From: Actinomycetota bacterium
GTDB lineage: Bacteria > Actinomycetota > Geothermincolia > Geothermincolales > RBG-13-55-18
Length of the DNA: 38,779 bases
Assembly: GCA_028697145.1 (NCBI GenBank)
Contig: JAQVFR010000035.1
Location: forward strand, 1-38,779
Direction: 5' to 3'
Part shown: one piece after another, positions 2,829 to 18,483 of the stretch
Layout of the letters: the number at the start of each line of letters is the position of its first letter
How positions within the stretch are numbered: the first letter of the stretch is position 1
Notes under the pieces: generated by a model
Seen by the model: only the letters and a program-made list of their open reading frames with translations
Told to the model about the DNA's origin: nothing
Database searches by the model: none
Program-made: the position numbers and the translations under genes

Positions 2829-5800
2829 GTGGAGCGAGTTACCGCGAGTCTCTCCGAGGTCGGCCTGGGCGATCTCGCACGGGTAGGGGGCAAGGGGGCC
2901 AACCTGGGTAATCTGCTCAAGGGTGGCTTCGCCGTCCCCCCGGGATTCTGCGTGCTGTCGGGCGCTTACGGGAGTTTTATCTCCCAGCCCGAGCTCGCGC
3001 GGCGCCTCAAGGCCATCCTGGAATGCCTCGACTTCTCCGACCTCCCGGCCGTGGAAGAGGCGTCGGCGGCCATCCGCGAGCTCTTCCTCGCCGTGCCCCT
3101 CCCCGCCCCCACCGAGTGGGCCATAGCCTCGGCCTACCGCGGGCTGCTGGCGGAGACGGGGGAGGACGCGCTGGTGGCAGTGCGCTCTTCGGTGGGAACC
3201 TGGGACCTTTCCGCGACCTCCTTCCCCGGACAGATGGATACCTATCACAACCTGCGCGGGGAGGACGAGGTTCTGAGAAAGGTGGTGGATTGCTGGGCAT
3301 CGGCCTTCAGCTACCAGGCCATGGTCAACCGCCATTCCCGCGGCATCGGCCATTTCGACGTTTTCGTCGCCCCCTTGGTGCAGGCGATGATCGCGGCGGA
3401 GAGCGCCGGGGTCATCTTCACCGCCAACCCGGTGAACGGCCAACGTGACCAGATGGTGATCAACGCCTGCCTCGGGCTGGGCGAGGGAGTGGTCTCGGGG
3501 GGGCTGCAATGTGACCACCTGGTGGTGGAACGCGGCGGCGGCGTGGTGGAGGAGGTAACCGGCCGCAAGGAATTCAAGGTGATGCTGGACGAGGACAAGG
3601 GAAGAGGAACCCGCATGGTACCCCTGGATCCCGCAGAGGGCTCGCTTCCCGCCCTGTCCAGGCTGCAGGTCCGGCTGCTGGTGGATACTGCCTCCGCTAT
3701 CGAGGAATATTACGGCTCGCCCCAGGACATCGAATGGGCGTTCGCCGGGGGCAAGCTGCATATCCTGCAGGCGCGGAAGATAACCGGACTCAAGCCTTTT
3801 CCATGCGGCGGCGAGAGGCCGCGGGAGGATGCGGCGGACCTGCCTTCCTCGCATGTCGCCCTGGAATGGGTGAGCGAGTTCGACACCACCGTGGACCCGC
3901 GCTACGACCTCTACACCCTCTCCAACATCAGCGAGGTGCTGCCCGGAGTGCTCACGCCACTGAGCATGTCCGACATCCCCTCGCTCGATTACGGTTTCGT
4001 CAAGGCCAACAGTGACTTCGGCCTCATGAAGGGCATCGAGCCCGCGAGCGAGATGACCTTCCTGGGACTCTTCTACGGGCGCGTCCATCTCAACCTCTCG
4101 GTGGCCAAGGCCATGATAGCCAGGGCGCCCGGGGGCAGCACCCGCGAGTTCGACCGCAGGCCGCCGCAGGAGAGCGGCCTGGAGGAGGTGAGGTGGCGTC
4201 CCACCGTGGAGAACCTCCTGGCGTTGCCCGGGATCGTCGCGGGACTGGCGAGGGGGGTGATGGAGGCACCGTCAAGGGTGGAGGAACTGGGGCGGGAGAA
4301 CGCGCGCCTGCTGGCACGTGCGCGGCGGCTGGACGTCGCCTCCGACCCCTACCCGCCCATCATGGAATGGCTGGTGGAGAGCCGCGCCTTCGTCAACCAG
4401 GTCATGGCGCAGCATATCGTCGTTTCCGAGCTGGCGACCAACTTCTACGAACTCCTCGGCAAGCTCACGGCGGCATGGCTGGACGACGCCGGCGGCATGC
4501 TGGCCTCCCGCCTCATGACCGGCCTGCAGACGCTGGAGAGCGCCCGCCCCAACATCGGTATCTGGGACCTCTCGTGCATGGTCCGCGAGTCGCCGGAGTT
4601 GAGGCAGGTCTTCGAGACCACACCGCCGCGGGAGATACTGCCGCGCCTCGAGTGCGACCTCTCGCCACAGGCCGGCGAACTCCTGCTCGCCCTGCGTGCC
4701 TTCCTGGACGAGTACGGCTACCGCGGCGTCTTCGAGGGGGAGGCCATGACCCTCAACTGGGAGGAGGACCCGGCGTACATCTTCGGCATGATAATAAACT
4801 GCCTGGATGCCGGCCCCGACAGCGACCCCCGCGAGCATGCGCGCAGGCAGGAACGGGAGAGGGAGGAGGCCACCCGCGCCTGCCTCGACCGCCTGAACGC
4901 CGCACGGCGGCCCGTCTTCCGCTACGCCCTGCGGCAGGCGCAGGAATTCATCCGCCTGCGCGAGTTAATGAAGGCGGAGCTGGTGAAGCTGCTGGCCCAG
5001 GGCAAGATCATCTATCACGCCCTCGGGCCGAGGTTCGTCGCCGAGGGCGTCACCACGCGGGCGGACGACATCTTTTTCCTCACCAGCCCAGAGATACGCG
5101 AGCTCGCCCTGGGCCGGGGGGCTGACATCCCCGTGGCGGAATCGGTGGCGAGGCGCAGGAGTGAATACGAGAGGAACCTCTCCGTGGTGCTGCCCGAGCA
5201 CAGCAAGGGACGGCCCCGGCCCCTCTCCCCCGCCGAGCAGGAGGCGCGGCGGGAGGTGAGAACCCTGCGCGGAATACCCGTGAGCCCGGGGCGGGCGACG
5301 GCGAGGGCGCGGGTGATCACCGACCCACGGCGGAGTTCCCACTTCGAGCCGGGAGAGGTCCTTGTCGCCCCGGTCACCGACGCCGCCTGGACCCCCCTCT
5401 TCGTCACCGCCTCGGCCATCGTCGTCGACGTGGGCGGTCCGCTGTCCCACGGCTCCATCGTGGCGCGCGAGTACGGCATCCCCGGCGTGCTCAACGTGGG
5501 CGAGGGCACCCGCGTCATCCGCACCGGCCAGTTGATCACCGTGGACGGGGACCGCGGGACCGTATACCTCCACCCTCTCGCGGGAGAGGGCGGGGGCGCC
5601 GGGGCGGGCCCCGCCGGGACCGGGGCCGGGGAATGGGTGAGCGAGTTCGACACCGCCGTTGACCCGGCCTATCCGGATTACACCCTGTCCAACATCGGCG
5701 AGGTGCTGCCCGGCGTGCTCACCCCCCTCACCATGTCCGACCTCGACGCCCTCGACTACGGCTTCGTGAAGAACAACCGCGACTTCGGCCTCATGCGGGG

Positions 5801-7355
5801 CATCGAGCCCGCGAGCGAGATGACCTTCCTGGGCCTCTTTTACGGGCGCTGCCACCTCAATCTCTCGGTTATCAAGGCCATCGCCGCCAGGGTCCCTGGC
5901 GGCTCCGCGAGCGAGTTCGAGCGCAGGGACGAGGAGGAAGCGGGATCGCCCGAAAAGACCTGGCGGCCGACGGCGGCCAACCTCGCCGCCCTGCCGGGCC
6001 TGTTGTGGCGCGAGGTGGCCAGGGGCATCAGCACCCCGGGGGAGGCGGAGAGACTGGCGCGCGAGATGGACGCCTACCTCGAGGAGGCGGGCCGGCGCGA
6101 CCTGGCGAAGATGTCCTGCCGTGATGTCGTGGAGGTCCTGGTGAGAGGGCGGGAACACCTCTTCCGGGCCATGGCCATGCACATAAACGTGTCGCAGTTC
6201 GCCCTCATCTACCACCTCTTCTTGAGCCGCCTTACCGCCGCATGGCTGGACGACCCCGGCGGCATACTGGCCTCCCGTCTCATGACCGGGCTGCAGAGCC
6301 TCGAGAGCGCCCGTCCCAGCGCGCTCATCTGGGACCTCTCGCGCATGGTCGAGGAAAGCGGTGAGCTCTCGCGCATCTTCGCCGCAAGCGAGACGGACGA
6401 GATACTCCCGCGCCTGGAGGGCAGCGCCTCGCCCGAGGCGGGGGCGTTCCTCGCCTCCCTGCGCTCCTTCCTCGACGAGTTCGGCTACCGGGGCGTGTTC
6501 GAATCGGAGACCATGGCGCCCAGTTGGGAGGAGGACCCCGCCTGCGTCTTCTCCATGATCGCCAACTACCTGGAAGCCGACCCCGCCGCCAGCCCGGGCG
6601 AGCTGGCGGCAAGGCAGGACCGCGAGAGGGAGGAGGCGGCGCGCGAGGTCGCGAGGAGGATCAAGGGGCCGCGCCGCATCGTCTTCGACTACATACTCGG
6701 GCAGGCGCAGCGTTTCATCTCCCTGCGAGAGTACATGAAGTCCTATCTCATCAAGATTATCTACCAGGGCAAGAAGATCTACCGCGTCCTGGGCGCGAGG
6801 TTCTGCGAGGACGGCATCCTTGGCGCGGCGGACGACATCTATTTCCTCACCCGCGCGGAGGTGATCGCGCTGGCCCGGGGAGAAGGCGGAGATGTCCCGC
6901 TGGAGGAGATCATCGCCAGGCGACGTGGCGAGTACGAGCGCAACCTCACCGTGACCCTCCCCCAGTACAGCCGCGGCCGCCCCAGGCCCCTCGCCGCGGA
7001 CGAGCTGGCGCGGGAGAGGGACGCCGAGGTCCTGCAGGGCATAGGGGTGAGCCCTGGAGTGGTCACGGCGAAGGCGCGGGTGATAACCGACCCGTGCCGC
7101 GACGCGTCGCTGGAGCCGGGGGAGATACTGGTGGCGCCGGTGACCGACGCCGCCTGGACGCCCCTCTTCGTCACCGCCGCGGCCACCGTGGTCGAGGTGG
7201 GAGGGCCGCTTTCCCACGGCTCCATCGTGGCGCGCGAGTTCGGGATGCCCTGCGTGGTCAACGCCGGCGGCGCCACCCAGCTCATCGCCACGGGGCAGAC
7301 CATTACCGTGGACGGCGGCGCGGGCAAGGTATATCTGCACCCCACAGAGAAGTAA
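2829..7355 (+). CDS. PEP synthase/rifampicin-phosphotransferase-like enzyme with two phosphohistidine modules
   Basis: A 1508-residue protein. Residues 1-335 form a PPDK/PEP-synthase-type ATP-grasp domain (GGKGANLGNLL near 20-30, AVRSSVGTWDLSATS, and QDIEW at 299-303). Two long copies of the same module follow: residues about 346-920 and 935-1508. Each starts EWVSEFDT.VDP, contains LSNI.EVLPGVLTPL and GIEPASEMTFLGLFYGR, and ends in a swivelling phosphohistidine domain with GGPLSHGSIVARE; the candidate phospho-histidines are H874 and H1463. Rifampicin phosphotransferases have one ATP domain, one substrate domain and one His domain in under 900 residues, so this enzyme has an extra 570-residue half. 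The likely chemistry is ATP-dependent phosphoryl transfer through histidine to an unknown substrate. GTG 2829 is preceded by AAGGGTGG. The lipocalin-like gene follows 53 bases later. Confidence 0.85.
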   Translation: MERVTASLSEVGLGDLARVGGKGANLGNLLKGGFAVPPGFCVLSGAYGSFISQPELARRLKAILECLDFSDLPAVEEASAAIRELFLAVPLPAPTEWAIASAYRGLLAETGEDALVAVRSSVGTWDLSATSFPGQMDTYHNLRGEDEVLRKVVDCWASAFSYQAMVNRHSRGIGHFDVFVAPLVQAMIAAESAGVIFTANPVNGQRDQMVINACLGLGEGVVSGGLQCDHLVVERGGGVVEEVTGRKEFKVMLDEDKGRGTRMVPLDPAEGSLPALSRLQVRLLVDTASAIEEYYGSPQDIEWAFAGGKLHILQARKITGLKPFPCGGERPREDAADLPSSHVALEWVSEFDTTVDPRYDLYTLSNISEVLPGVLTPLSMSDIPSLDYGFVKANSDFGLMKGIEPASEMTFLGLFYGRVHLNLSVAKAMIARAPGGSTREFDRRPPQESGLEEVRWRPTVENLLALPGIVAGLARGVMEAPSRVEELGRENARLLARARRLDVASDPYPPIMEWLVESRAFVNQVMAQHIVVSELATNFYELLGKLTAAWLDDAGGMLASRLMTGLQTLESARPNIGIWDLSCMVRESPELRQVFETTPPREILPRLECDLSPQAGELLLALRAFLDEYGYRGVFEGEAMTLNWEEDPAYIFGMIINCLDAGPDSDPREHARRQEREREEATRACLDRLNAARRPVFRYALRQAQEFIRLRELMKAELVKLLAQGKIIYHALGPRFVAEGVTTRADDIFFLTSPEIRELALGRGADIPVAESVARRRSEYERNLSVVLPEHSKGRPRPLSPAEQEARREVRTLRGIPVSPGRATARARVITDPRRSSHFEPGEVLVAPVTDAAWTPLFVTASAIVVDVGGPLSHGSIVAREYGIPGVLNVGEGTRVIRTGQLITVDGDRGTVYLHPLAGEGGGAGAGPAGTGAGEWVSEFDTAVDPAYPDYTLSNIGEVLPGVLTPLTMSDLDALDYGFVKNNRDFGLMRGIEPASEMTFLGLFYGRCHLNLSVIKAIAARVPGGSASEFERRDEEEAGSPEKTWRPTAANLAALPGLLWREVARGISTPGEAERLAREMDAYLEEAGRRDLAKMSCRDVVEVLVRGREHLFRAMAMHINVSQFALIYHLFLSRLTAAWLDDPGGILASRLMTGLQSLESARPSALIWDLSRMVEESGELSRIFAASETDEILPRLEGSASPEAGAFLASLRSFLDEFGYRGVFESETMAPSWEEDPACVFSMIANYLEADPAASPGELAARQDREREEAAREVARRIKGPRRIVFDYILGQAQRFISLREYMKSYLIKIIYQGKKIYRVLGARFCEDGILGAADDIYFLTRAEVIALARGEGGDVPLEEIIARRRGEYERNLTVTLPQYSRGRPRPLAADELARERDAEVLQGIGVSPGVVTAKARVITDPCRDASLEPGEILVAPVTDAAWTPLFVTAAATVVEVGGPLSHGSIVAREFGMPCVVNAGGATQLIATGQTITVDGGAGKVYLHPTEK

Positions 7356-7408: not shown

Positions 7409-8503
7409 ATGGAAGCTTCCGCGGCGAGGCAGGAGGGTTTCGGCGGCAAGCTGAAGGTCCATGCCCTGAGCGCTTCCTACGCCATGCTCAAGCGGGCCAG
7501 GGGCATCGGCATCCCGCTGGAGCCCGAAGTGGAATACCTGCACGACCCCACCGCCGACTTCGACTTCAACGAGAGCTTCTACTTCAACTTCACCGACCCC
7601 AAGCGCCAGGTGGGCGGCTGGACCAGGATAGGCATCCTTCCCAACCAGGACGGAGACATGGGCGCCATCATGCTCTACGCCGGGGGGAGCCGCATCCTGG
7701 CCGCGCTTCAGACCGGCAAGGTTGAGTGCGACGAAGGCGGGCTGCGTTTCGGCGACCTCTCATACCGCCGCCTCGAGCCGCTGAAGAGGTGGCGCCTGGA
7801 ATTCAGGGGCGAGATGATGGACGTGGAGAACGCGAGGAAGCTGCCCGAGCTGAAGCCGGAGGTCCTGCTCACCCAGGGGGTGGAGGTGGACCTGGAGGCG
7901 GAGGGGATGGCCCCCTGCTTCGACTTCAAGGATTCCGACCCGCGCGCCCTGGCGGAGATGCTGGTTAGGGCGCGCACGCGCCTCGCGGACCTGCGCAAGG
8001 TGTCCAAGGTCTCCAGCGAGCACTACGAGCAGGCGATGCGGGTGAGCGGCACCATCAGGATCGGCAACCGCGAGATAACCTTCGCCGGCAGCGGCCACCG
8101 CGACCACTCCTGGGGGATAAGGGACTGGGCGGCGCCGCGGCTGTGGACCTGGCTCACCTGCCAGTTCGGAGAGGAACTCGCCTTCAACCTCAGCCGCGTG
8201 GCCATCGCCAGCGTGGACATCTACAACGGCTTCGTCACCCGGGACGGCGCCAACTACCCCCTGCGCAGGGCGCAGCTGGAGACGGGGTTCGAGGACGATG
8301 GCGTGACCCAGCGCGGCCTGGCCTTACGGCTGGAGGACACCGGCGGCATGGCCCTGGAGGTCACGGGGGACGCGCTCTGCGTCATCCCCCTGCTCATGGA
8401 ATCCGGCGGCCGCCGCACCCTGGTCAACGAGGCCCTCACCGAGTACCACTGGGGGGACAGGGTGGGCTACGGCATCGCCGAGTACCTGCACCAGTTGGGC
8501 TAG
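7409..8503 (+). CDS. Lipocalin-like (DUF7064/7065-type) protein
   Basis: A 364-residue, beta-rich soluble protein without signal peptide. The motif GHRDHSWGIRDW near residue 230 and the repeated W-rich strands are typical of the paired DUF7065/DUF7064 domains, which are related to the CrtC/tocopherol-cyclase lipocalin fold and bind or convert hydrophobic molecules; this placement is from memory of the family. ATG 7409 is chosen because GAAGGGGG lies seven bases upstream. An in-frame ATG at 7355 overlaps the preceding stop (TAATG) and would add 18 residues by coupled translation. It is probably co-transcribed with the upstream phosphotransferase, which hints at a hydrophobic substrate for that enzyme. 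It converges with the SDR gene only four bases downstream. Confidence 0.75.
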   Translation: MEASAARQEGFGGKLKVHALSASYAMLKRARGIGIPLEPEVEYLHDPTADFDFNESFYFNFTDPKRQVGGWTRIGILPNQDGDMGAIMLYAGGSRILAALQTGKVECDEGGLRFGDLSYRRLEPLKRWRLEFRGEMMDVENARKLPELKPEVLLTQGVEVDLEAEGMAPCFDFKDSDPRALAEMLVRARTRLADLRKVSKVSSEHYEQAMRVSGTIRIGNREITFAGSGHRDHSWGIRDWAAPRLWTWLTCQFGEELAFNLSRVAIASVDIYNGFVTRDGANYPLRRAQLETGFEDDGVTQRGLALRLEDTGGMALEVTGDALCVIPLLMESGGRRTLVNEALTEYHWGDRVGYGIAEYLHQLG

Positions 8504-8507
8504 GGGG

Positions 8508-9419
8508 TCAGTCGAGTTTCAGGTTGGAGAGCACGTAGCCTGTCTGCTCGGTCACCGACCCGTACCCGCGGCCGCCCTCGAGGCTCTTGATCTTCTCGAT
8601 GTTGGCCTCCACGTCCTCGATGGTTATCTCCTTGTCGGGATCCAGGAAGACGCCCGGGCCCTCGACGATGGCCGAGCGGCTGAAATATCCCGCTCCCGCC
8701 ATGAAGTACATGCCGCTGACGTCGCAGTGGTCCGAGGCCAGCCAGCATACCATGGGCGCGACGTATTCCGGCTTGAGCTTATCGATGATGTTCGGGGGAA
8801 GTACGGTAGCCGTCATGCGTGTGCCCGCCTGCGGGACGATGACGTTGGCCAGGATGTTGTACTTGGCGCCCTCCTGCTTCACGCAGTTGGTGAAGCCGAC
8901 GATGCCCATCTTCGCGGCCCCGTAGTTGGCCTGCCCGAAGTTGCCGTAAACACCGGTGCCGGAGGCGGTGGACACGATCCTGCCGTAGGCGGCCTCGCGC
9001 ATGTGGGGCAGGGCGGCCTTGGTGCAGTAAAAAGTGCCGTCCATGTGGACCGCCATCACCAGCTTGTAGTCCTCGATGGTCATCTTGAGCAGGCTCTTGT
9101 CCCTGAGGATGCCGGCGTTGTTGATGAGGATGTCTATCCTGCCGTAGGCGTCGATGGCCGTCTGGATGATCGCCTGGGCGCTCTCCCAATCGGAGACGCT
9201 GTCGTAATTGGGCGTCGCTTCCCCTCCCGCGGCCTTGATCTCGTCCACGACCAGCTGGGCCGCACGCGTGTCGGCCCCGACGCCGTCGAACGAACCTCCC
9301 AGGTCGTTGACGACCACCTTGGCCCCCCGGCTGGCGAGGAGCATGGCGTAGGCCTTCCCGAGCCCTCCGCCCGCTCCGGTGACCACGGCCACCCTGTCGT
9401 CGAACTTTACCTCCGCCAT
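8508..9419 (-). CDS. Short-chain dehydrogenase of the MFE-2 (3-hydroxyacyl-CoA) type
   Basis: A 303-residue NAD(P)-dependent oxidoreductase. The glycine motif TGAGGGLG is at 14-21, NNAG at 100-103, and the catalytic set S153-Y166-K170 is intact (Tyr-x3-Lys in YGAAK). The stretches VVVNDLGGSF, GILRDKSL and YGNFGQANY, and the long tail after the Rossmann fold, closely match the dehydrogenase part of peroxisomal multifunctional enzyme 2 and bacterial relatives, which oxidise (3R)-3-hydroxyacyl-CoA. A role in fatty-acid or steroid side-chain beta-oxidation is likely. An upstream in-frame ATG at 9464 exists, but the ATG at 9419 has AAAGGAGCG upstream and begins right before the Rossmann strand, so I chose it. 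No hydratase or SCP2 domain is fused. Confidence 0.9.
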   Translation of the reverse strand: MAEVKFDDRVAVVTGAGGGLGKAYAMLLASRGAKVVVNDLGGSFDGVGADTRAAQLVVDEIKAAGGEATPNYDSVSDWESAQAIIQTAIDAYGRIDILINNAGILRDKSLLKMTIEDYKLVMAVHMDGTFYCTKAALPHMREAAYGRIVSTASGTGVYGNFGQANYGAAKMGIVGFTNCVKQEGAKYNILANVIVPQAGTRMTATVLPPNIIDKLKPEYVAPMVCWLASDHCDVSGMYFMAGAGYFSRSAIVEGPGVFLDPDKEITIEDVEANIEKIKSLEGGRGYGSVTEQTGYVLSNLKLD

Positions 9420-9528
9420 GATGCATCGCTCCTTTCCCTCACACGATCGCGGTTGCGATATCATGCGTGCGGATGCTGTGTTATCTTGTCCCCTGCCGCA
9501 CGAGAATCCGTAAGCCGTCAGTATTCAC

Positions 9529-9552
9529 ATTATACCAGCCGGCATTGCCGGC
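9529..9552 (-). promoter_or_regulatory. Extended -10 promoter overlapped by a palindrome, driving the SDR gene
   Basis: On the minus strand TGGTATAAT (extended -10, TATAAT at 9534-9529) is present. A perfect inverted repeat GCCGGCA-T-TGCCGGC occupies 9538-9552, directly upstream of the -10 where a repressor would block polymerase. The start codon is about 110 bases downstream, leaving a leader of about 100 nt. The regulator cannot be named. Confidence 0.5.
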
Positions 9553-9661
9553 AGTGCGCCCGCCGCAGCCTGCTGGAGACCTCGAACCCCGGGTCACCGA
9601 CCCGCCCGGCTGCCGTCGCGGCCAACGCCGGGAATCCCGCGGGTGTTTGCGGCCCGCAGCT

Positions 9662-9675
9662 ATAGGATATCCTAT
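9662..9675 (+). promoter_or_regulatory. 14-bp perfect palindrome before the flavoprotein operon
   Basis: ATAGGATATCCTAT is its own reverse complement and lies 44 bases before the ATG at 9720. A possible -10 (TATTAA, 9673-9678) overlaps its right half. This is the layout of a dimeric repressor operator, but no -35 box is convincing. Confidence 0.4.
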
Positions 9676-9719
9676 TAATCGTAAGGCCATGAGCAGAGCG
9701 AGGACAAGCGGAGGGAGAG

Positions 9720-11546
9720 ATGGCGGAGACGCTGTATGACCGGGACCTGACCTGCGACGTGCTGGTGGTTGGGAGCGAGGGAGCCGGCGGTCCCACCGCC
9801 ATCAACGCCGCTCGCGCCGGGCTGGACGTGCTTATCGCGAGCAAGGGCAGGATGGGCCGCTGCGGGGCCTCGCAGATGGCCGGCGCGGATTTCAACCTGG
9901 ACGGCAGGAGCGCCATCGCGCTCGGCCTGCCGGGCGACGAGCGCGACTCGCCCGAGCGCTTCTTCGAGGACCTGGTGCGCGAGGGCTTCTTCCTGGGAAA
10001 CCAGCGCATGGTGGAGAAGTACGTGGAGTACGCCGCCAGGAACACCGCGGACCTCCTGGAATGGGGCATGCCGGTGTTCCGCTTCGAGCAGGTGCACGCG
10101 GAGGAGATGGCCAGGGGCATCATCACCTCGGGAGTGCGGTGGGTGCGCATCCTGCGCCGCAAGGCACGCGAGATGGGCATCACCGTCCTGGAGGACACCA
10201 TGGTGGTGGACCTTCTCACCCGCGAGGGGCGCGCCTGTGGGGCGGTGGCCCTGGACCTCAGATCGGGCGAGGTCGTCCTCATCAAGGCCAGGTCGGTGGT
10301 GCTGTGCACGGGTGGCTGGCAGCAGGCCTACCATTTCAACTCCGCCGCGGCCGACCTCACCGGCGACGGCCAGGCCATGGCCTTCCGCGCGGGCGCCGAG
10401 ATGATCGGCATGGAGATGGTGCAGTACATCCCCATGACCATGCTCTGGCCGCCCCTTGCCCGCAAGAGCATCCTCCCCTATATCATGATGGAGACCGAGG
10501 TCGGTCCCCTTGTCCAGCTCCTCAACGGCGAGGGCGAACGCTTCATGCAGCGCTACGACCCCACCACCATGGAGCAGTCCACCAAGGAGATCGTGGCCAT
10601 CGCCAGCGAGCTGGAGGTGGAGGCGGGGCGCGGCAGCCCCCACGGCGGCGTCTTCTTCGCCCTCAAGCACCTCACGCCGGAGGGGATCGATTTCGTATGG
10701 GGAAAGTTCGTCGAGTTCCTCGACCAGAACGGCGACAAGCGCTCCGAGTTCCGCAAGCTGTTGCCCCACCTGCTGGAGATGGCCAAGACGGAGGACCTGG
10801 AGGTGGGCAACGCGGTGCACTTCATGGTGGGCGGCATAAAGGTCGACGAGCGCACGCGCACGGGCGTCCCCGGCCTTTACGCCGCCGGGGAGTGTTCGGG
10901 CGGATTATGGGGCTCGGTGCGCGTGGCATCCGCCACCACCCAGGTGGGGGCCCAGGGCCGCATCGCCGGCGAGACCTGCCCGGAATACGTGGGGAGCGTG
11001 GAGCACGCCGAGCCGGAGAGGGCCCAGCTGGAGGCCGTGCGGGAGAGGATCATGGCCCCCCTGGAGAGGAGCGACGGCGCCCGGCCCATAGAGGTCCTGG
11101 AGAGGATGTACGGTATCACGGACGAATACCTGCGCGTCATCCGGGACGGCGAAGGGCTCCAGAACGCCTACGACGAGCTGAACTGGCTGCGGCGGGACGA
11201 GGCCTCGCGCCTGCACGTCACCGCCTCACGCACGAGGCGCCTGAACCGGGAATGGCATCTGTGCCTGGAGCTGGAGAACATGCTCCTGTGCCTGGAGATG
11301 AGCGCGCTGGCTTCCCTCAGGCGGGAGGAGAGCCGGGGCGGCTTCTACCGCAGCGACTTCCCCTATACCGATAACGACCGCTGGTGCGTGAACGCCGTCA
11401 TCTCGAACCGGGACGGCGAGCCGTCGCTGCGCCTGGAGAAGCCGGTGGTGACCAGCATGCAGCTCCCCTCCGGCAGGATGACCTTCGAGGAGGCAGTGGC
11501 CTCAGGGACCGCATCCCTCAGGCGCGGGGAGGTGGAACAGCCATGA
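9720..11546 (+). CDS. FrdA/SdhA-family FAD-binding oxidoreductase
   Basis: A 608-residue flavoprotein of the succinate dehydrogenase/fumarate reductase/aspartate oxidase family. The N-terminal dinucleotide-binding strand reads VLVVGSEGAGGPTAINAARAG; the next FAD contact region is RCGASQMAGADF, which lacks the His used for covalent flavin in SdhA. VVLCTGGW precedes the capping domain, and GLYAAGECSGGLWGSVR plus QGRIAGE mark the second FAD region. A C-terminal helical domain rich in charged residues follows, as in SdhA. Start ATG 9720 follows GGAGGGAGAG. The stop overlaps the ATG of the 2Fe-2S gene (ATGA), so the two are translationally coupled and probably form one complex. There is no membrane anchor gene nearby, so a soluble enzyme is likely. 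Substrate unknown. Confidence 0.85.
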   Translation: MAETLYDRDLTCDVLVVGSEGAGGPTAINAARAGLDVLIASKGRMGRCGASQMAGADFNLDGRSAIALGLPGDERDSPERFFEDLVREGFFLGNQRMVEKYVEYAARNTADLLEWGMPVFRFEQVHAEEMARGIITSGVRWVRILRRKAREMGITVLEDTMVVDLLTREGRACGAVALDLRSGEVVLIKARSVVLCTGGWQQAYHFNSAAADLTGDGQAMAFRAGAEMIGMEMVQYIPMTMLWPPLARKSILPYIMMETEVGPLVQLLNGEGERFMQRYDPTTMEQSTKEIVAIASELEVEAGRGSPHGGVFFALKHLTPEGIDFVWGKFVEFLDQNGDKRSEFRKLLPHLLEMAKTEDLEVGNAVHFMVGGIKVDERTRTGVPGLYAAGECSGGLWGSVRVASATTQVGAQGRIAGETCPEYVGSVEHAEPERAQLEAVRERIMAPLERSDGARPIEVLERMYGITDEYLRVIRDGEGLQNAYDELNWLRRDEASRLHVTASRTRRLNREWHLCLELENMLLCLEMSALASLRREESRGGFYRSDFPYTDNDRWCVNAVISNRDGEPSLRLEKPVVTSMQLPSGRMTFEEAVASGTASLRRGEVEQP

Positions 11547-11860
11547 CCCGCCCGACCATCAAGGTGCGCTGTTTCCGTTACGACCCGGAGACGGATGCCG
11601 AGCCGCGTTTCCAGGAATACCAGGTCCCCATGGAGGACGGCGAGATGTCCGTGCTCGACTGCCTGCGGCACATAAGGGAACACCTGGACCCCGGCCTGGC
11701 CTTTTTCGCCGGATGCCACCTGGGATTCTGCCAGCGCTGCACCCTGAGGGTGAACGGCAAGGTCGTGCTGGCCTGCGAGACCACGGCCGGGGGCGACATG
11801 GACCTGGAGCCGGTCAACGCGGATGAGGTCATCCGCGACCTCTGGTGCGGCAGCACCTAG
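11543..11860 (+). CDS. Stand-alone SdhB/FrdB-type 2Fe-2S protein
   Basis: A 105-residue ferredoxin-fold protein corresponding only to the N-terminal 2Fe-2S domain of succinate dehydrogenase iron-sulfur subunits. Ligands C58, C63, C66 and C78 follow the CxxxxCxxC...C pattern (GCHLGFCQRC, then VVLAC). Full SdhB is about 230-250 residues and has a second domain with 4Fe-4S and 3Fe-4S clusters; that domain is absent and the stop at 11860 is followed by a new ribosome site, so this is a natural short version, not a frameshift. The start ATG 11543 overlaps the flavoprotein stop as ATGA. It probably passes electrons between the flavoprotein and an external carrier. Confidence 0.85.
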   Translation: MTRPTIKVRCFRYDPETDAEPRFQEYQVPMEDGEMSVLDCLRHIREHLDPGLAFFAGCHLGFCQRCTLRVNGKVVLACETTAGGDMDLEPVNADEVIRDLWCGST

Positions 11861-11900
11861 GGGGGGCCTGACCCCATAAAGAAAAGGAGGTAGGGACAAG

Positions 11901-12428
11901 ATGGCCGACGAGAGGAAGGATTTCGACCTGGAGGTCCTGGGGCCGGCCCTGGGAGAGAGGACGGAGAAGAAGGAGCGATACATCGACGCGCCCCTGGCCA
12001 TGCAGGCCAAGCTGTTCACCACCATGGCCAAGGAAGTCATCGAGCGTTTCGGCGACGAAGGCCGGGAGGCCGTCATCGCCGCGGTGAAAAGGTTCGGGGA
12101 AGAGCGCGGCCGCCGCATGGCAGAGCGCGCCGCCGCCGAGGGCAGGGAGAACAGCTTCGCCAGCTTCCTGGTCCTTTCCGACCTGGATACGGGCTATCAC
12201 CAGATGGTGCCCGAGGCCATGGAGGGGGCGCTGAAGGTCACCATCTCCCACTGCCCCTTCGCCGCCGCCTGCGCGGAATGGGGCCTTTCCGAATACGGCA
12301 AGTATTTCTGCCAGGAGATAGACGCCGCCATCATGCGTGGATACAACCCGGAGAGATACGAGACGGCATGCGAACGCAATCTCACAGAGGGCGCCGAAAC
12401 CTGTGTCATCGTCTATAAGTTCAAATGA
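11901..12428 (+). CDS. ATC-hydrolase-family protein (L-2-amino-thiazoline-4-carboxylate hydrolase-like)
   Basis: A 175-residue protein resembling the ATC_hydrolase family (PF14196): an N-terminal helical part with FGDEGREAVIAAVKRFGEERG, and a C-terminal part with HCPFAAACAEWG, a YGKYFCQEID helix, RGYNP and a final TCVIVYKF strand. Family members open the thiazoline ring of L-ATC to N-carbamoyl-L-cysteine, but many proteins with this domain have other or unknown substrates. The several conserved cysteines and acidic residues suggest metal or cluster binding. A near-ideal ribosome site AAAAGGAGG lies before ATG 11901. It follows the 2Fe-2S gene by 40 bases and overlaps the M20 leader, so it is part of the same operon. 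Confidence 0.75.
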   Translation: MADERKDFDLEVLGPALGERTEKKERYIDAPLAMQAKLFTTMAKEVIERFGDEGREAVIAAVKRFGEERGRRMAERAAAEGRENSFASFLVLSDLDTGYHQMVPEAMEGALKVTISHCPFAAACAEWGLSEYGKYFCQEIDAAIMRGYNPERYETACERNLTEGAETCVIVYKFK

Positions 12429-12451
12429 TGAAGCCGGAAGGAGAGAGTCAC

Positions 12452-13774
12452 ATGGACTGGGATAAACTGGGATATGATGCCGTTGAGACACTTTGCGAGT
12501 ACCTGCGCATCGACACCACCAATCCTCCCGGCAACGAGGCTCCGGGGGCGGAGTTCCTGGGAGACGTCCTGCGCGGGGAGGGCATCGAGTTCAGGCTGTA
12601 CGAGAGCGCCCTCGGGCGTTCATCCCTCCTGGCGCGGCTGAGGGGCTCCGGGGAAGGCAGGCCGCTCATCCTCCTCAACCACATAGACGTGGTCCCCGCC
12701 AATCCCGAGAACTGGCAGATCCACCCCTTCTCCGGCGAGATCGCCGACGGTTTCATCTGGGGGCGGGGGGCCCTCGACATGAAGGGCATGGGGGTGATGG
12801 AGCTCATGGCCTTCATCGCCGCCGCCCGCGAGGGCCTCGAACTCGGCCGCGACGTGGTCTTTTTGGCCGTCGCCGACGAGGAGGCGGGAGGCTACTCCGG
12901 GGCGAGGATGCTCCTCGAGAAACACCCGGAGGAGCTGGAGGCCGACCTGGTCATCAACGAGGGCGGTTACGCCACCATGGACCTGGTGCCCGGCAAGCCT
13001 TTCTTCATGATCGCCAACGCGGAGAAGTACGGTTACTGGCTGCGCCTGAGGCGCCGCGGCATAGGCGGCCACGGCTCCATGCCCACCGGCCAGGGCGCAC
13101 TCGACCACATGGTCCCAGCGCTTGCCAGGCTCCTCGCCAGCAAGCGTCCCATGAGCATCAATCCCACCATGCAGGCATTCTTCGCGCGGCTGGCCGAGCA
13201 CTGGGAGATCCTCTTCCCCTACCGCGATGACGGGAGCCTCGAGACCCTGGAGAGGCTGGTCGAGGAGAACAACCTAGCCGCCCTGCCCGCCCTGAGCGCC
13301 GTGGTCCGCGACACCGTGAGCCTGAACATGCTCAACGCCGGGGTGAAGATAAACGTCATCCCCGACGAGGCGGAGGCCTTCCTCGACTGCCGCCTGCTGC
13401 CGGAGACGGAGGGGGACGACTTCCTGGCATATATAAGGGAGGCGCTGGGCGATCCCGACATGGAGGTCGACGTGTTCATGGACATGGAGAGGGCCCCCGC
13501 CTCTCCCCTCGAGGGCCTTTTCATCGCGGCGATAGAGAGGGCCGTTCGCGCCAACTACCCGGACGCCGTCAGCAGCCCCTTCATGCTCTCGGGGCTGTCC
13601 GACTCCCGCTTCTTCCGCGCCCGAGGCATTCCCTGCTACGGCATCATCCCCGCCCGCCTCGGCCTCGCGGACCTGACGCGCATCCACGGCGTGGACGAGA
13701 GGATAGCCGTGCAGGACGTGAAGGACGGGGTGAAGTTCCTCTACGACCTCATCGTGGAGACCTGCCGGCCCTAG
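12452..13774 (+). CDS. M20-family metallohydrolase (peptidase/amidohydrolase)
   Basis: A 440-residue M20/M25/M40-family enzyme (ArgE/DapE/carboxypeptidase S type). Zinc ligands and catalytic residues are visible: H77 and D79 in NHID, D109 in GRGALDMKG, the general-base pair E143-E144 in ADEEAGG, E170 in INEGGY, and H412 in RIHGVDE. The dimerisation lid contains RRGIGGHGSMPT. It hydrolyses an amide, peptide or N-acyl/N-carbamoyl amino acid in the cytoplasm. I chose ATG 12452, which has GGAAGGAGAG at the right distance; an ATG at 12425 overlaps the previous stop and would add nine residues. Its place after an ATC-hydrolase-type gene makes N-carbamoyl-cysteine hydrolysis a testable idea. Confidence 0.85.
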   Translation: MDWDKLGYDAVETLCEYLRIDTTNPPGNEAPGAEFLGDVLRGEGIEFRLYESALGRSSLLARLRGSGEGRPLILLNHIDVVPANPENWQIHPFSGEIADGFIWGRGALDMKGMGVMELMAFIAAAREGLELGRDVVFLAVADEEAGGYSGARMLLEKHPEELEADLVINEGGYATMDLVPGKPFFMIANAEKYGYWLRLRRRGIGGHGSMPTGQGALDHMVPALARLLASKRPMSINPTMQAFFARLAEHWEILFPYRDDGSLETLERLVEENNLAALPALSAVVRDTVSLNMLNAGVKINVIPDEAEAFLDCRLLPETEGDDFLAYIREALGDPDMEVDVFMDMERAPASPLEGLFIAAIERAVRANYPDAVSSPFMLSGLSDSRFFRARGIPCYGIIPARLGLADLTRIHGVDERIAVQDVKDGVKFLYDLIVETCRP

Positions 13775-13803
13775 TCCGGCGTTCGTATCCGCGGGGCCCC
13801 GGT

Positions 13804-14868
13804 CTACTGCAGGGCGACCATCTCGTGCAGGGTGGTGCCGGTCTCTGAGAAGCTGCGCCCCCCGTGCTGTGCGCGCAGGGTGAAATCCGACTCGAAACGG
13901 AACCATCCCGGCCGCATTAACCTGTTCATCAGCCAGCGCACGGCCGGGTTCATGACGATAGGGTTCATCTCCCTGAGGAGGTCGCCAGAGTCGATGATGC
14001 GCCTCACGTCGAAGCGCAGGTAGACCTCGCCGCGTATCTCCATCTCCAGGACGGACGGATAGGTGCGGTTGGCCTTGCGGTTGAAGGTGGCCCCGCTCTC
14101 CCTCAGCTCCATCTCGCCCGAGGAGAGGACGACCTTGTCCTTATACGCCAGCATGAGGGGCTTGGAGGCCACGTTACCGAAGCGCTTCTGGGTGCGCACG
14201 TAGGCATAGAGGAGGGTGAAGTCGTCGGTGTACAGCCTTCCCCAGTACCACCAGGAGATGATGCGCCGCGCGTCGGTGGTGATCACGTTGTGGTCGTGGT
14301 AGCCGATGCCCTTCGCCTGCAATGTCTTCCCCTCGAACTTCACCGTGCCCTCGACCCTCGCGCGCGGAATGGGCACCACCCAGCTGAAGTAGCCGCGGTC
14401 CCCGTACCTGGTCCTGCCCTTGCCCGGCTTCCAGCCCGGCAGCTCGCTCACGAAGGTGAGGTCCAGCTCCATGCCGTCCTCGGATATGAAAAGGTGGTGC
14501 GTGGGCAGGTCCCCCTCCTCCGGCCACTCCGCCCAGCAGTGGTTACTCCCCACCCACACGTCGCATTTCTCCTCCGAGGCGCGCAACTCGGAGACGGGGA
14601 ACTTTTTCACCACCGAGAGCTTCTCGCCCGACGGTTTGTACACGTGTATCTCTATGCCCGGCTTGCGCGTCATCAGCTCCGAGGCCTGCAGGAAGCCCAC
14701 CACCACGTGACCGTCCTCCAGGCGCGCGTCGAAGTACCACCACTCGCCGTAGAACCTGCTCCTGCTGGCCTCACGGTTGATGGCATTCTCGCGCGCGGTG
14801 ATGGGGATGATGGTCCCGTCCCTTTCCCCCGGTCCAGACCATTCGTCAATAACCGGCTCTACCCTCAT
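13804..14868 (-). CDS. CrtC-like (hydroxyneurosporene synthase/AttH-type lipocalin) protein
   Basis: A 354-residue protein with the marks of the CrtC/AttH lipocalin-like family: GEWWYFDARLEDG at 41-53, WAEWPEEG, GYFSWVVPIPRARVEG, and GIGYHDHN with a following ISWWYWGR near residue 190-210. CrtC adds water to carotenoid precursors, while other members bind or modify lipids; no other carotenoid gene is in the window, so a carotenoid role is not supported here. ATG 14868 is preceded by GGGGGGAGG; an in-frame ATG at 14889 lacks such a site. It lies just downstream of the antiporter on the same strand but has its own candidate promoter. Confidence 0.75.
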   Translation of the reverse strand: MRVEPVIDEWSGPGERDGTIIPITARENAINREASRSRFYGEWWYFDARLEDGHVVVGFLQASELMTRKPGIEIHVYKPSGEKLSVVKKFPVSELRASEEKCDVWVGSNHCWAEWPEEGDLPTHHLFISEDGMELDLTFVSELPGWKPGKGRTRYGDRGYFSWVVPIPRARVEGTVKFEGKTLQAKGIGYHDHNVITTDARRIISWWYWGRLYTDDFTLLYAYVRTQKRFGNVASKPLMLAYKDKVVLSSGEMELRESGATFNRKANRTYPSVLEMEIRGEVYLRFDVRRIIDSGDLLREMNPIVMNPAVRWLMNRLMRPGWFRFESDFTLRAQHGGRSFSETGTTLHEMVALQ

Positions 14869-16981: not shown

Positions 16982-17110
16982 TCACTCCCCCTTCTCCACC
17001 TTTATCCTCCTTGGCGCGCTGTACCAGGGCGGGCCTCCCGCCGCCCATTCCTCCACTCCCACCTTCTTTATCTTGAGGCCGCATGGAGTGCGGCCGCTGA
17101 CGCTCTTCAT
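16982..17110 (-). CDS. Small 42-residue protein coupled to the GGR-like gene
   Basis: ATG 17110-17108 overlaps the TGA of the GGR-like gene (17109-17107) in an ATGA arrangement, and the frame runs 42 codons to TGA at 16984-16982. The peptide begins MKSVSGRTPCG, continues KIKKVGVEEWAAGGPPWYS and ends KVEKGE. Third positions are mostly G or C, as in the neighbours, and the residue mix looks protein-like. A small hairpin (GGCCGCA/TGCGGCC, 17078-17096) lies inside it. An overlapping frame begun at 17114 looks less natural (low-complexity Gly/Arg). I do not recognise a family; it may be a small accessory of the flavoprotein. Confidence 0.5.
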   Translation of the reverse strand: MKSVSGRTPCGLKIKKVGVEEWAAGGPPWYSAPRRIKVEKGE

Positions 17111-18483
17111 TCATACTCGCGCAGCAGGCGGCGGAAGTAACCGTGCCTCGCCGCGTCAGCCTTCTCCCACAGGGGCTTCACCTTTTCGGCCCAGGCCCCG
17201 AACGCGACCGGGTGTTCCGGATATGCCTCGTAGAGTTTCCTGAGGGTAGCTGCCGTCATGCCCATCTTGACGATGGCGGCGACCGAACCGGGGCGCAGCT
17301 TCCCCGTGGCGATACCGGCAAGAAGGGCCGGAAGCGATCTCAACGCTGTGGCCGGGTCCGACTTCAGTTCATACTCGAGGTTGAGCGCCCGCGTCCCCTC
17401 CTCGCTGAAGATGCCGGGGACGGTGAAGAGGAAATCGATCTCCTCCTGCGAGAGGGAAACGACGGCGGGCATCGCCGCCGCGAGAAAGGCGAACTTGGCG
17501 CCCTGGTCGCGGAAGTAACGCGCATTGTAAGGCCAGAGGGCTTCCCGCGTGAGGTCGTCGCGCGCCAGCGCGTCCGCTGCGACCTCTGCGGCGATGGCAC
17601 AGGCGGTGAAGGCGGAGGTCACACCCTCACCATTGAACGGTTTGTTCAAGAAGGCGGCATCGCCCACCACCATGAGGCCGCTGTCCAACAGGGAGAGCGG
17701 CGGGCGGCGGTAAGGGACCCTGCCGCCGGTCGAACTCACGGCCCGCCCCGTGAAGGGCAGGGTCGCCGCGAAGGCCTGCTGCCTTTTCCTCGCGCCCTCG
17801 GGGCTTGCGGGCATGCCCACCCCTACGATGAGCTCGTCCCCGTAGCTGGGCGCATACCATCCCTGGAAGTGCAGGAAAGAGTTTATGTCCGCGCCCACCT
17901 CGCCCTGGAGGTCACCCCAGGACTCCATGTAGACGATGAGGGTATCCAGGTCGGCGATGGGATCGTTCTCGATCCAGGGGCTGTCCGGCAGGCTGGTCCT
18001 CACCGCCCCGTCAATGCCCGACGCGTCCACCACAAGGCGGCAGGTGACCTCGATGTCTCCCTCCGATCCCGACGCCTCGACACCGGCGGGGAAGCCTTTC
18101 TCCCTGATCACCCTCCTGAACTCCACCTTCTCCAGGATCTCCGCTCCCGCCTTCCTCGCATAGGAGTGGAGCCTGCGCATGAAGGCCGGCTTGTCCATGT
18201 CCAGGGTCGCGAACCTGGCCGTCGCCCTGTTGCGGTGGTCGGGAGACCACATGGTTATGGTTTCCAGGCGGTGCAGCAGCTCTTCCCCCTCCGGAAGCGG
18301 TATGCCGAACCTCTCGAATGCCTCCTCCTCCATGTGGAAGGGCCCGATCCTCGTTCCCAGGTTTTCCAGCTCATCCTTTTCCAGCACCAGGCAACGGTAC
18401 CCGGCCTCAGCGAGTCTCCAGGCAAGGTATGTCCCGGAGGTCCCCGCCCCCACGATCGTCACGTCCACCTCGCGAACAGACAT
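17107..18483 (-). CDS. Geranylgeranyl-reductase-like FAD oxidoreductase
   Basis: A 458-residue flavoprotein of the p-hydroxybenzoate hydroxylase/geranylgeranyl reductase superfamily. The N-terminal VTIVGAGTSGTYLAWRLAEAG gives the FAD dinucleotide motif (G12, G14, G17), LVVDASGIDG is the DG-type motif, and LMVVGDAAFLNKPFNGEGV is the second FAD-binding motif with the pattern usual in GGR proteins. Family members reduce polyprenyl double bonds or oxidise aromatic and lipid substrates; the exact substrate is open. The C-terminal 100 residues are helical. ATG 18483 follows GGGAGG. The gene has a candidate extended -10 at 18530-18522 and overlaps the small gene downstream. Confidence 0.8.
   Translation of the reverse strand: MSVREVDVTIVGAGTSGTYLAWRLAEAGYRCLVLEKDELENLGTRIGPFHMEEEAFERFGIPLPEGEELLHRLETITMWSPDHRNRATARFATLDMDKPAFMRRLHSYARKAGAEILEKVEFRRVIREKGFPAGVEASGSEGDIEVTCRLVVDASGIDGAVRTSLPDSPWIENDPIADLDTLIVYMESWGDLQGEVGADINSFLHFQGWYAPSYGDELIVGVGMPASPEGARKRQQAFAATLPFTGRAVSSTGGRVPYRRPPLSLLDSGLMVVGDAAFLNKPFNGEGVTSAFTACAIAAEVAADALARDDLTREALWPYNARYFRDQGAKFAFLAAAMPAVVSLSQEEIDFLFTVPGIFSEEGTRALNLEYELKSDPATALRSLPALLAGIATGKLRPGSVAAIVKMGMTAATLRKLYEAYPEHPVAFGAWAEKVKPLWEKADAARHGYFRRLLREYE

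Follow-up and report, generated by a model that had tools for sequence, protein, structure and literature searches.

A predicted rifampicin phosphotransferase-type dikinase with one ATP-grasp domain and two substrate-phosphohistidine modules in a single chain

We identified a 1508-aa protein in which a single ATP-grasp domain is followed by two successive modules, each made of a substrate-binding domain and a swivel phosphohistidine domain. It is encoded on contig JAQVFR010000035.1 of an uncultured bacterium from a deep branch of the Actinomycetota (38,779 nucleotides, the whole stretch of DNA that was analysed and hereafter the window). Sequence and predicted fold place the chain in the family of rifampicin phosphotransferase (RPH)-type dikinases, and by analogy with characterised relatives we consider it likely that, in this putative small-molecule dikinase, the one ATP-grasp domain charges two swivel arms, each with its own pocket. 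In the swivel-His dikinases characterised so far, a single ATP site goes with a single arm and a single acceptor site, whereas this chain has two conserved arms. The gene and its parts are as follows.

2829 to 7355, plus strand: two-module RPH-type dikinase gene (1508 aa, GTG start, single ORF)
2880 to 3788, plus strand: ATP-grasp domain (PPDK_N), residues 18-320 (Pfam E 8e-78; own-genome family search)
3864 to 5243, plus strand: substrate-binding domain 1, residues 346-805, with R711, E712 and K715 (profile alignment to RPH 5hv1)
5244 to 5576, plus strand: swivel phosphohistidine domain 1, residues 806-916, with H874 in GGPLSHGS (PEP-utilizers match at 5343-5558)
5577 to 5630, plus strand: Gly/Ala/Pro-rich linker LAGEGGGAGAGPAGTGAG, residues 917-934, joining module 1 to module 2 (linker sequences compared)
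5631 to 7010, plus strand: substrate-binding domain 2, residues 935-1394, with R1300, E1301 and K1304 (half-to-half alignment)
7011 to 7352, plus strand: swivel phosphohistidine domain 2, residues 1395-1508, with H1463 in GGPLSHGS (PEP-utilizers match at 7113-7325)

Pfam detects one PPDK_N domain and two PEP-utilizers stretches in the protein and nothing else. Together with the uninterrupted frame, this bears out the order ATP-grasp, middle-His, middle-His that an earlier note, made from the sequence alone, had proposed. Module 1 spans residues 346 to about 920 and module 2 residues 935-1508; their starts, at 346 and 935, give a period of 589 aa, and the DNA repeats are spaced constantly at 1767 nt (589 codons). 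The halves (346-934 and 935-1508) align over 573 residues with 61% amino acid and 69% nucleotide identity, and third codon positions are 60% identical between the two modules. This alignment substantiates the likeness of the middle parts that the note had remarked on and confirms the positions of the two GGPLSHGS histidines, H874 and H1463. The linker is unconserved in sequence among the three genes of this architecture described below, is modelled with pLDDT <50, and its region (14 residues) has a dN/dS without clear constraint by the Nei-Gojobori method. An antisense frame of 791 aa that lies over the dikinase (window 4965-7340, minus strand) is put down to high GC and is not regarded as a gene.

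Relatives were searched in the genus, family and phylum, as well as in 84,980 GTDB genomes, and the best 80 loci were kept. Among these loci, the same five-part chain is found as an uninterrupted ORF in two other genomes, both of the same genus (QZKE01000005, 1550 aa, loci L002 and L031; JAFGDU010000114, 1497 aa, loci L003 and L032). These two further single-ORF doubles come from independent metagenome-assembled genomes (MAGs) and are both 68-69% identical to the 1508-aa chain. Two modules per chain are thus present in three of the three genomes of the genus that were searched, and a query made of the junction between His domain 1 and substrate domain 2 matched colinearly only these three doubles among 396 sampled genomes of the phylum. 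Across the genomes searched, the two-module architecture is confined to one genus.

In a tree of the modules, the first modules of the three genes group together and so do their second modules, each clade with a support of 100/100; the duplication is therefore older than the split of the genus. Forcing the two modules of the window's chain together is rejected by a tree topology test (p 2e-8). The SURF_21 genome, which also holds L031, has a paralogue with only one module, L033, whose placement is ambiguous: the clade of first and second modules has a support of 78/79, and topology tests that group L033 with the second modules or with the first modules give p 0.34 and p 0.10, respectively. The two modules may have arisen either by internal duplication or by fusion of two tandem dikinase genes.

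Both modules are under similar purifying selection, a point that the earlier note had proposed to check on the two halves. Between the three double genes, dN/dS (Nei-Gojobori, with dS probably partly saturated) is 0.20-0.33 and 0.21-0.35 for substrate domains 1 and 2, and 0.13-0.23 and 0.14-0.37 for swivel domains 1 and 2, i.e., about 0.2-0.35 for the modules. The ATP-grasp residues K22, R119, T138 and E302 are kept without change in the three double genes, and the pairs R711/R1300, E712/E1301, K715/K1304 and H874/H1463 are likewise identical in all of them. In the alignment to RPH, R711, E712 and K715 correspond to R666, E667 and K670, and R119 and T138 to R117 and T136. Mutagenesis of RPH-Lm has shown that K22, R117, T136, R666 and E667 are required for rifampin phosphorylation, and His825 of RPH is the phosphate carrier (PMC4844700). 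R1300, E1301 and K1304 are the counterparts of the triad in module 2, and H874 and H1463 both correspond to His825.

Several lines of evidence support the assignment to the RPH-type dikinases. A family profile built from 30 relatives aligns with RPH 5hv1 from one end to the other (profile positions 9-896, E 6e-230). Residues 1-924 were modelled with AlphaFold2 (pLDDT 87.9), and this model retrieves RPH entries as the top matches in a Foldseek search of the PDB (E 1e-46), followed by HpeI and PEP synthase over only ~330 columns. The chain has the N-terminal PPDK_N domain, the helical substrate domain with its Arg-Glu...Lys triad and the C-terminal GGxxxHG swivel typical of the RPH type, whereas it carries two substrate-His modules and not one; we count it as an RPH-type variant because each module taken alone shows the remaining features. 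It is encoded by one ORF and not as the separate polypeptides of two-component dikinases. The NCBIfam models all score well below their curated cut-offs, so the chain is not assigned to any named enzyme: RedH (NF052632, the best-scoring model for the 1508-aa chain, 634 vs 1350), PigC (582 vs 1300), RPH proper (NF041857, RIF_Ptrans, 539 vs 999) and PEP synthase (TIGR01418, 418 vs 740) were all rejected.

The earlier note had compared the protein with both rifampicin phosphotransferases and PEP synthase. The first comparison is apt, as RPH (Listeria RPH-Lm, PDB 5FBS/5HV1) shares the domain order (ATP, substrate, His), the essential residues of both active sites and the fold of the ATP-grasp domain with module 1; the difference is that RPH has one module and the 1508-aa chain two. 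The second is not relevant: PEP synthase (PpsA) and pyruvate phosphate dikinase have homologous ATP-grasp and swivel-His domains, but their His domain is central and is followed by a PEP/pyruvate-binding domain, which Pfam did not find at the C-terminus of the 1508-aa chain. The prodiginine ligases RedH and PigC have the same domain order but a single His domain. The phenolic dikinases HpeHI, CreHI and PpsAB share the separable substrate-His unit and the same proposed pyrophospho-His chemistry, whereas they consist of two polypeptides with one His unit and the 1508-aa chain is one polypeptide with two. The clade also has single-module members (L033, L034, L035, L037, L038, the second gene of L036, and L009), whose modules are 39-62% identical. 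Within this subfamily the ATP-grasp loop mostly reads RSSVGT...SFPGQM, in most of the single-module members as well, and other relatives mostly have RSSATAED...SFAGQ. In the literature, mostly papers outside subscription, we found no description of a duplicated swivel or PEP-utilizers architecture, in line with the earlier note, whose author knew of no described enzyme with an ATP-grasp domain and two His modules.

The gene downstream of the dikinase belongs to a family for which we found neither a paper on DUF7064/DUF7065 nor a function in the sources searched.

7409 to 8503, plus strand: DUF7064/DUF7065 (Rv3169-family) partner gene (364 aa; begins 53 bases downstream of the dikinase stop codon)

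The partner protein matches PF23212 (E 1e-22) and PF23213 (E 3e-13), scores below the cut-off of NF053593 (Rv3169_fam) and has no match among PDB sequences. A DUF7064/DUF7065 gene is the next gene downstream on the same strand in 10 of the 10 clade members tested, whether they have one module or two (the three doubles, L033, L034, L035, L037, L038, L036 and L009/G021), in the last of which it follows after a gap of ~0.5 kb. These members span two phyla (Actinomycetota and Desulfobacteraceae). Given this pairing, the DUF7064/DUF7065 product and the dikinase probably act on the same compound. Such a gene also comes directly after the dikinase in an Undinarchaeales archaeon (L054, 10277-11467) and in an Acidobacteriaceae genome (L039, 10719-11597); no full-length one was found beside the remaining relatives among the best 80 loci, many of which have short flanks.

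The Desulfobacteraceae locus L036 encodes, at 7968-13432, two complete, distantly related dikinases in tandem, with DUF7064/DUF7065 genes at 6100-7089 and 13420-14595 and, also flanking, an ADC-family gene and a CrtC-like gene. At one sampled locus (G045), the DUF7064/DUF7065 gene adjoins an APH-fold kinase. In Mycobacterium tuberculosis, Rv3169 adjoins Rv3168 (PMC5340868), a putative APH (PMC3691515), and the pairing described here offers a first handle on a kinase-adjacent family without a known function. The DUF7064/DUF7065 gene is not always beside a kinase: among the other neighbourhoods scanned, one holds an APH, another a two-component-type His unit, and several hold esterases, an oxidase or amidohydrolases. 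At L168 (G054:C71, 344-4814), a two-component-type substrate-His unit (665-aa frame) lies between two DUF7064/DUF7065-like frames.

By analogy with RPH, ATP bound in the ATP-grasp domain would pyrophosphorylate the swivel histidine with loss of Pi, and the phospho-His domain would then swing to the substrate domain, where the Arg-Glu...Lys triad would hand the phosphate to a hydroxyl; dikinases of the RPH type turn ATP into AMP and Pi. The RPH His domain swings >40 A between the ATP-grasp and substrate domains (PMC4844700). We infer by the same analogy not only the chemistry but also the sharing of the ATP site and the specificity of the pockets: either arm (H874 or H1463) would be charged by the shared ATP-grasp domain, whether in cis or by that of a second chain, and would serve its own adjoining pocket. 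In HpeHI, CreHI and PpsAB, the substrate-His unit is functional and can be charged by an ATP-grasp domain on another chain, and HpeH, such a unit without its own ATP-grasp domain and with HpeI as its separate partner, transfers phosphate between phenolics (PMC12167813). Because these units are modular, a second unit behind a flexible linker is mechanistically reasonable, whether it acts in cis or between chains, and with HpeH/HpeI, PpsA/PpsB and CreH/CreI as natural precedents, the two-module order is one variation within a family that is modular.

The other PPDK_N genes of the genome encode a pyruvate phosphate dikinase that has a His domain of its own and a PPDK_N protein of 870 aa that lacks one, so there is no obvious separate ATP-grasp for module 2; no APH kinase was found in this genome. 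The gene for the 870-aa protein lies at L176, 627-3239 (G000, contig C22), and the stretch preceding it is KaiC-like by eye. A model of the two modules (residues 326-1508, pLDDT 69, pTM 0.51, from 9 sequences) is too weak for domain placement and does not bear on the reach of arm 2 to the ATP-grasp domain. The natural chain makes it testable whether one ATP-grasp domain can serve a pair of carriers, and whether charging of arm 2 takes place in cis or in trans. It also offers a template for engineered multi-substrate phosphorylation.

Since the pockets have diverged modestly, they would most likely take two related hydroxyl substrates or two positions on one substrate, with the product probably handled by the neighbouring DUF7064/DUF7065 protein. 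A more specific version, which we put forward tentatively, is that the ATP-grasp domain alternately charges the two arms, that two differently shaped pockets phosphorylate two hydroxyls, on one molecule or on two partners, and that the product then passes to the DUF7064/DUF7065 enzyme.

The identity of the catalytic residues would fit just as well if both modules worked on one and the same position of a single substrate. Arm 2 could then serve gene dosage or throughput, raising the turnover of the ATP site or tethering two product-forming units. We regard this as possible but the less likely explanation. Besides the mapped catalytic residues, 251 of the 568 module columns are invariant across all six modules, and the swivel domains 1 and 2 of L032 (JAFGDU) share an exact match of 62 nt (VITDPRSDAEIRPGEILVAP) within a stretch that is more alike within the gene than between species, which suggests gene conversion that would keep the arms alike. 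However, the modules are only 61% identical after a duplication that predates the genus, 40 of the 568 columns are fixed differently between first and second modules, and the substrate domains (53-58% identity between modules) have diverged more than the swivels (71-82%).

RedH and PigC are ATP-dependent ligases that have this fold and couple two pyrrole units. With RedH as the top NCBIfam model and PigC also scoring high, the two arms might work one after the other on a single molecule (bis-phosphorylation) or activate two partners that are then joined, and the tandem of two different complete dikinases between two DUF7064/DUF7065 genes at L036 is in keeping with such a phosphorelay or dual reaction. 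We consider it unlikely, as both scores fall far under the cut-offs of enzymes that the chain is not, and neither a ligase partner nor a second substrate pathway is evident. Even less probable is that one module only is catalytic and the other structural or regulatory: duplicated modules often decay and swivel 2 is distant from the ATP-grasp domain along the chain, but the catalytic residues are all kept and dN/dS is similar in both modules in three species. That the two-module chain is an artefact of assembly or gene model, the objection raised in the earlier note, is so improbable that we regard it as ruled out: the window is one of the 52 contigs that make up a draft assembly, but the halves are far too divergent for a recent assembly duplication, the uninterrupted ORF recurs in both independent MAGs, and the first and second modules fall into separate clades.

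In the wider neighbourhood of the dikinase gene, three further genes are conserved.

9720 to 11546, plus strand: FAD fumarate-reductase/SdhA-like flavoprotein (same order in the three double genomes, 83-86%)
11543 to 11860, plus strand: 105-aa 2Fe-2S protein (Fer2_3; resembles SdhB in its N-terminal part; conserved next to the flavoprotein)
11901 to 12428, plus strand: ATC_hydrolase-family protein (PF14196; shared by the three double genomes at 73-79%)

These conserved neighbours (the SdhA-like flavoprotein, the 2Fe-2S protein, the ATC_hydrolase-family protein and the DUF7064/DUF7065 protein) name no substrate. An ATP-dependent dehydration by kinase and partner, modelled on the Sterolibacterium 25-hydroxysteroid kinase, was set aside as a distant idea only, because that kinase is encoded by a 1.2-kb gene and has a sequential mechanism, and the lyase is not known. 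Further along the window, the gene at 13804-14868 (minus strand) has a weak match to a CrtC lipocalin domain (E 4e-4) and is 87% identical in SURF_21, near the same cluster, and a geranylgeranyl-reductase-like gene (17107-18483) is also conserved in the SURF_21 genome.
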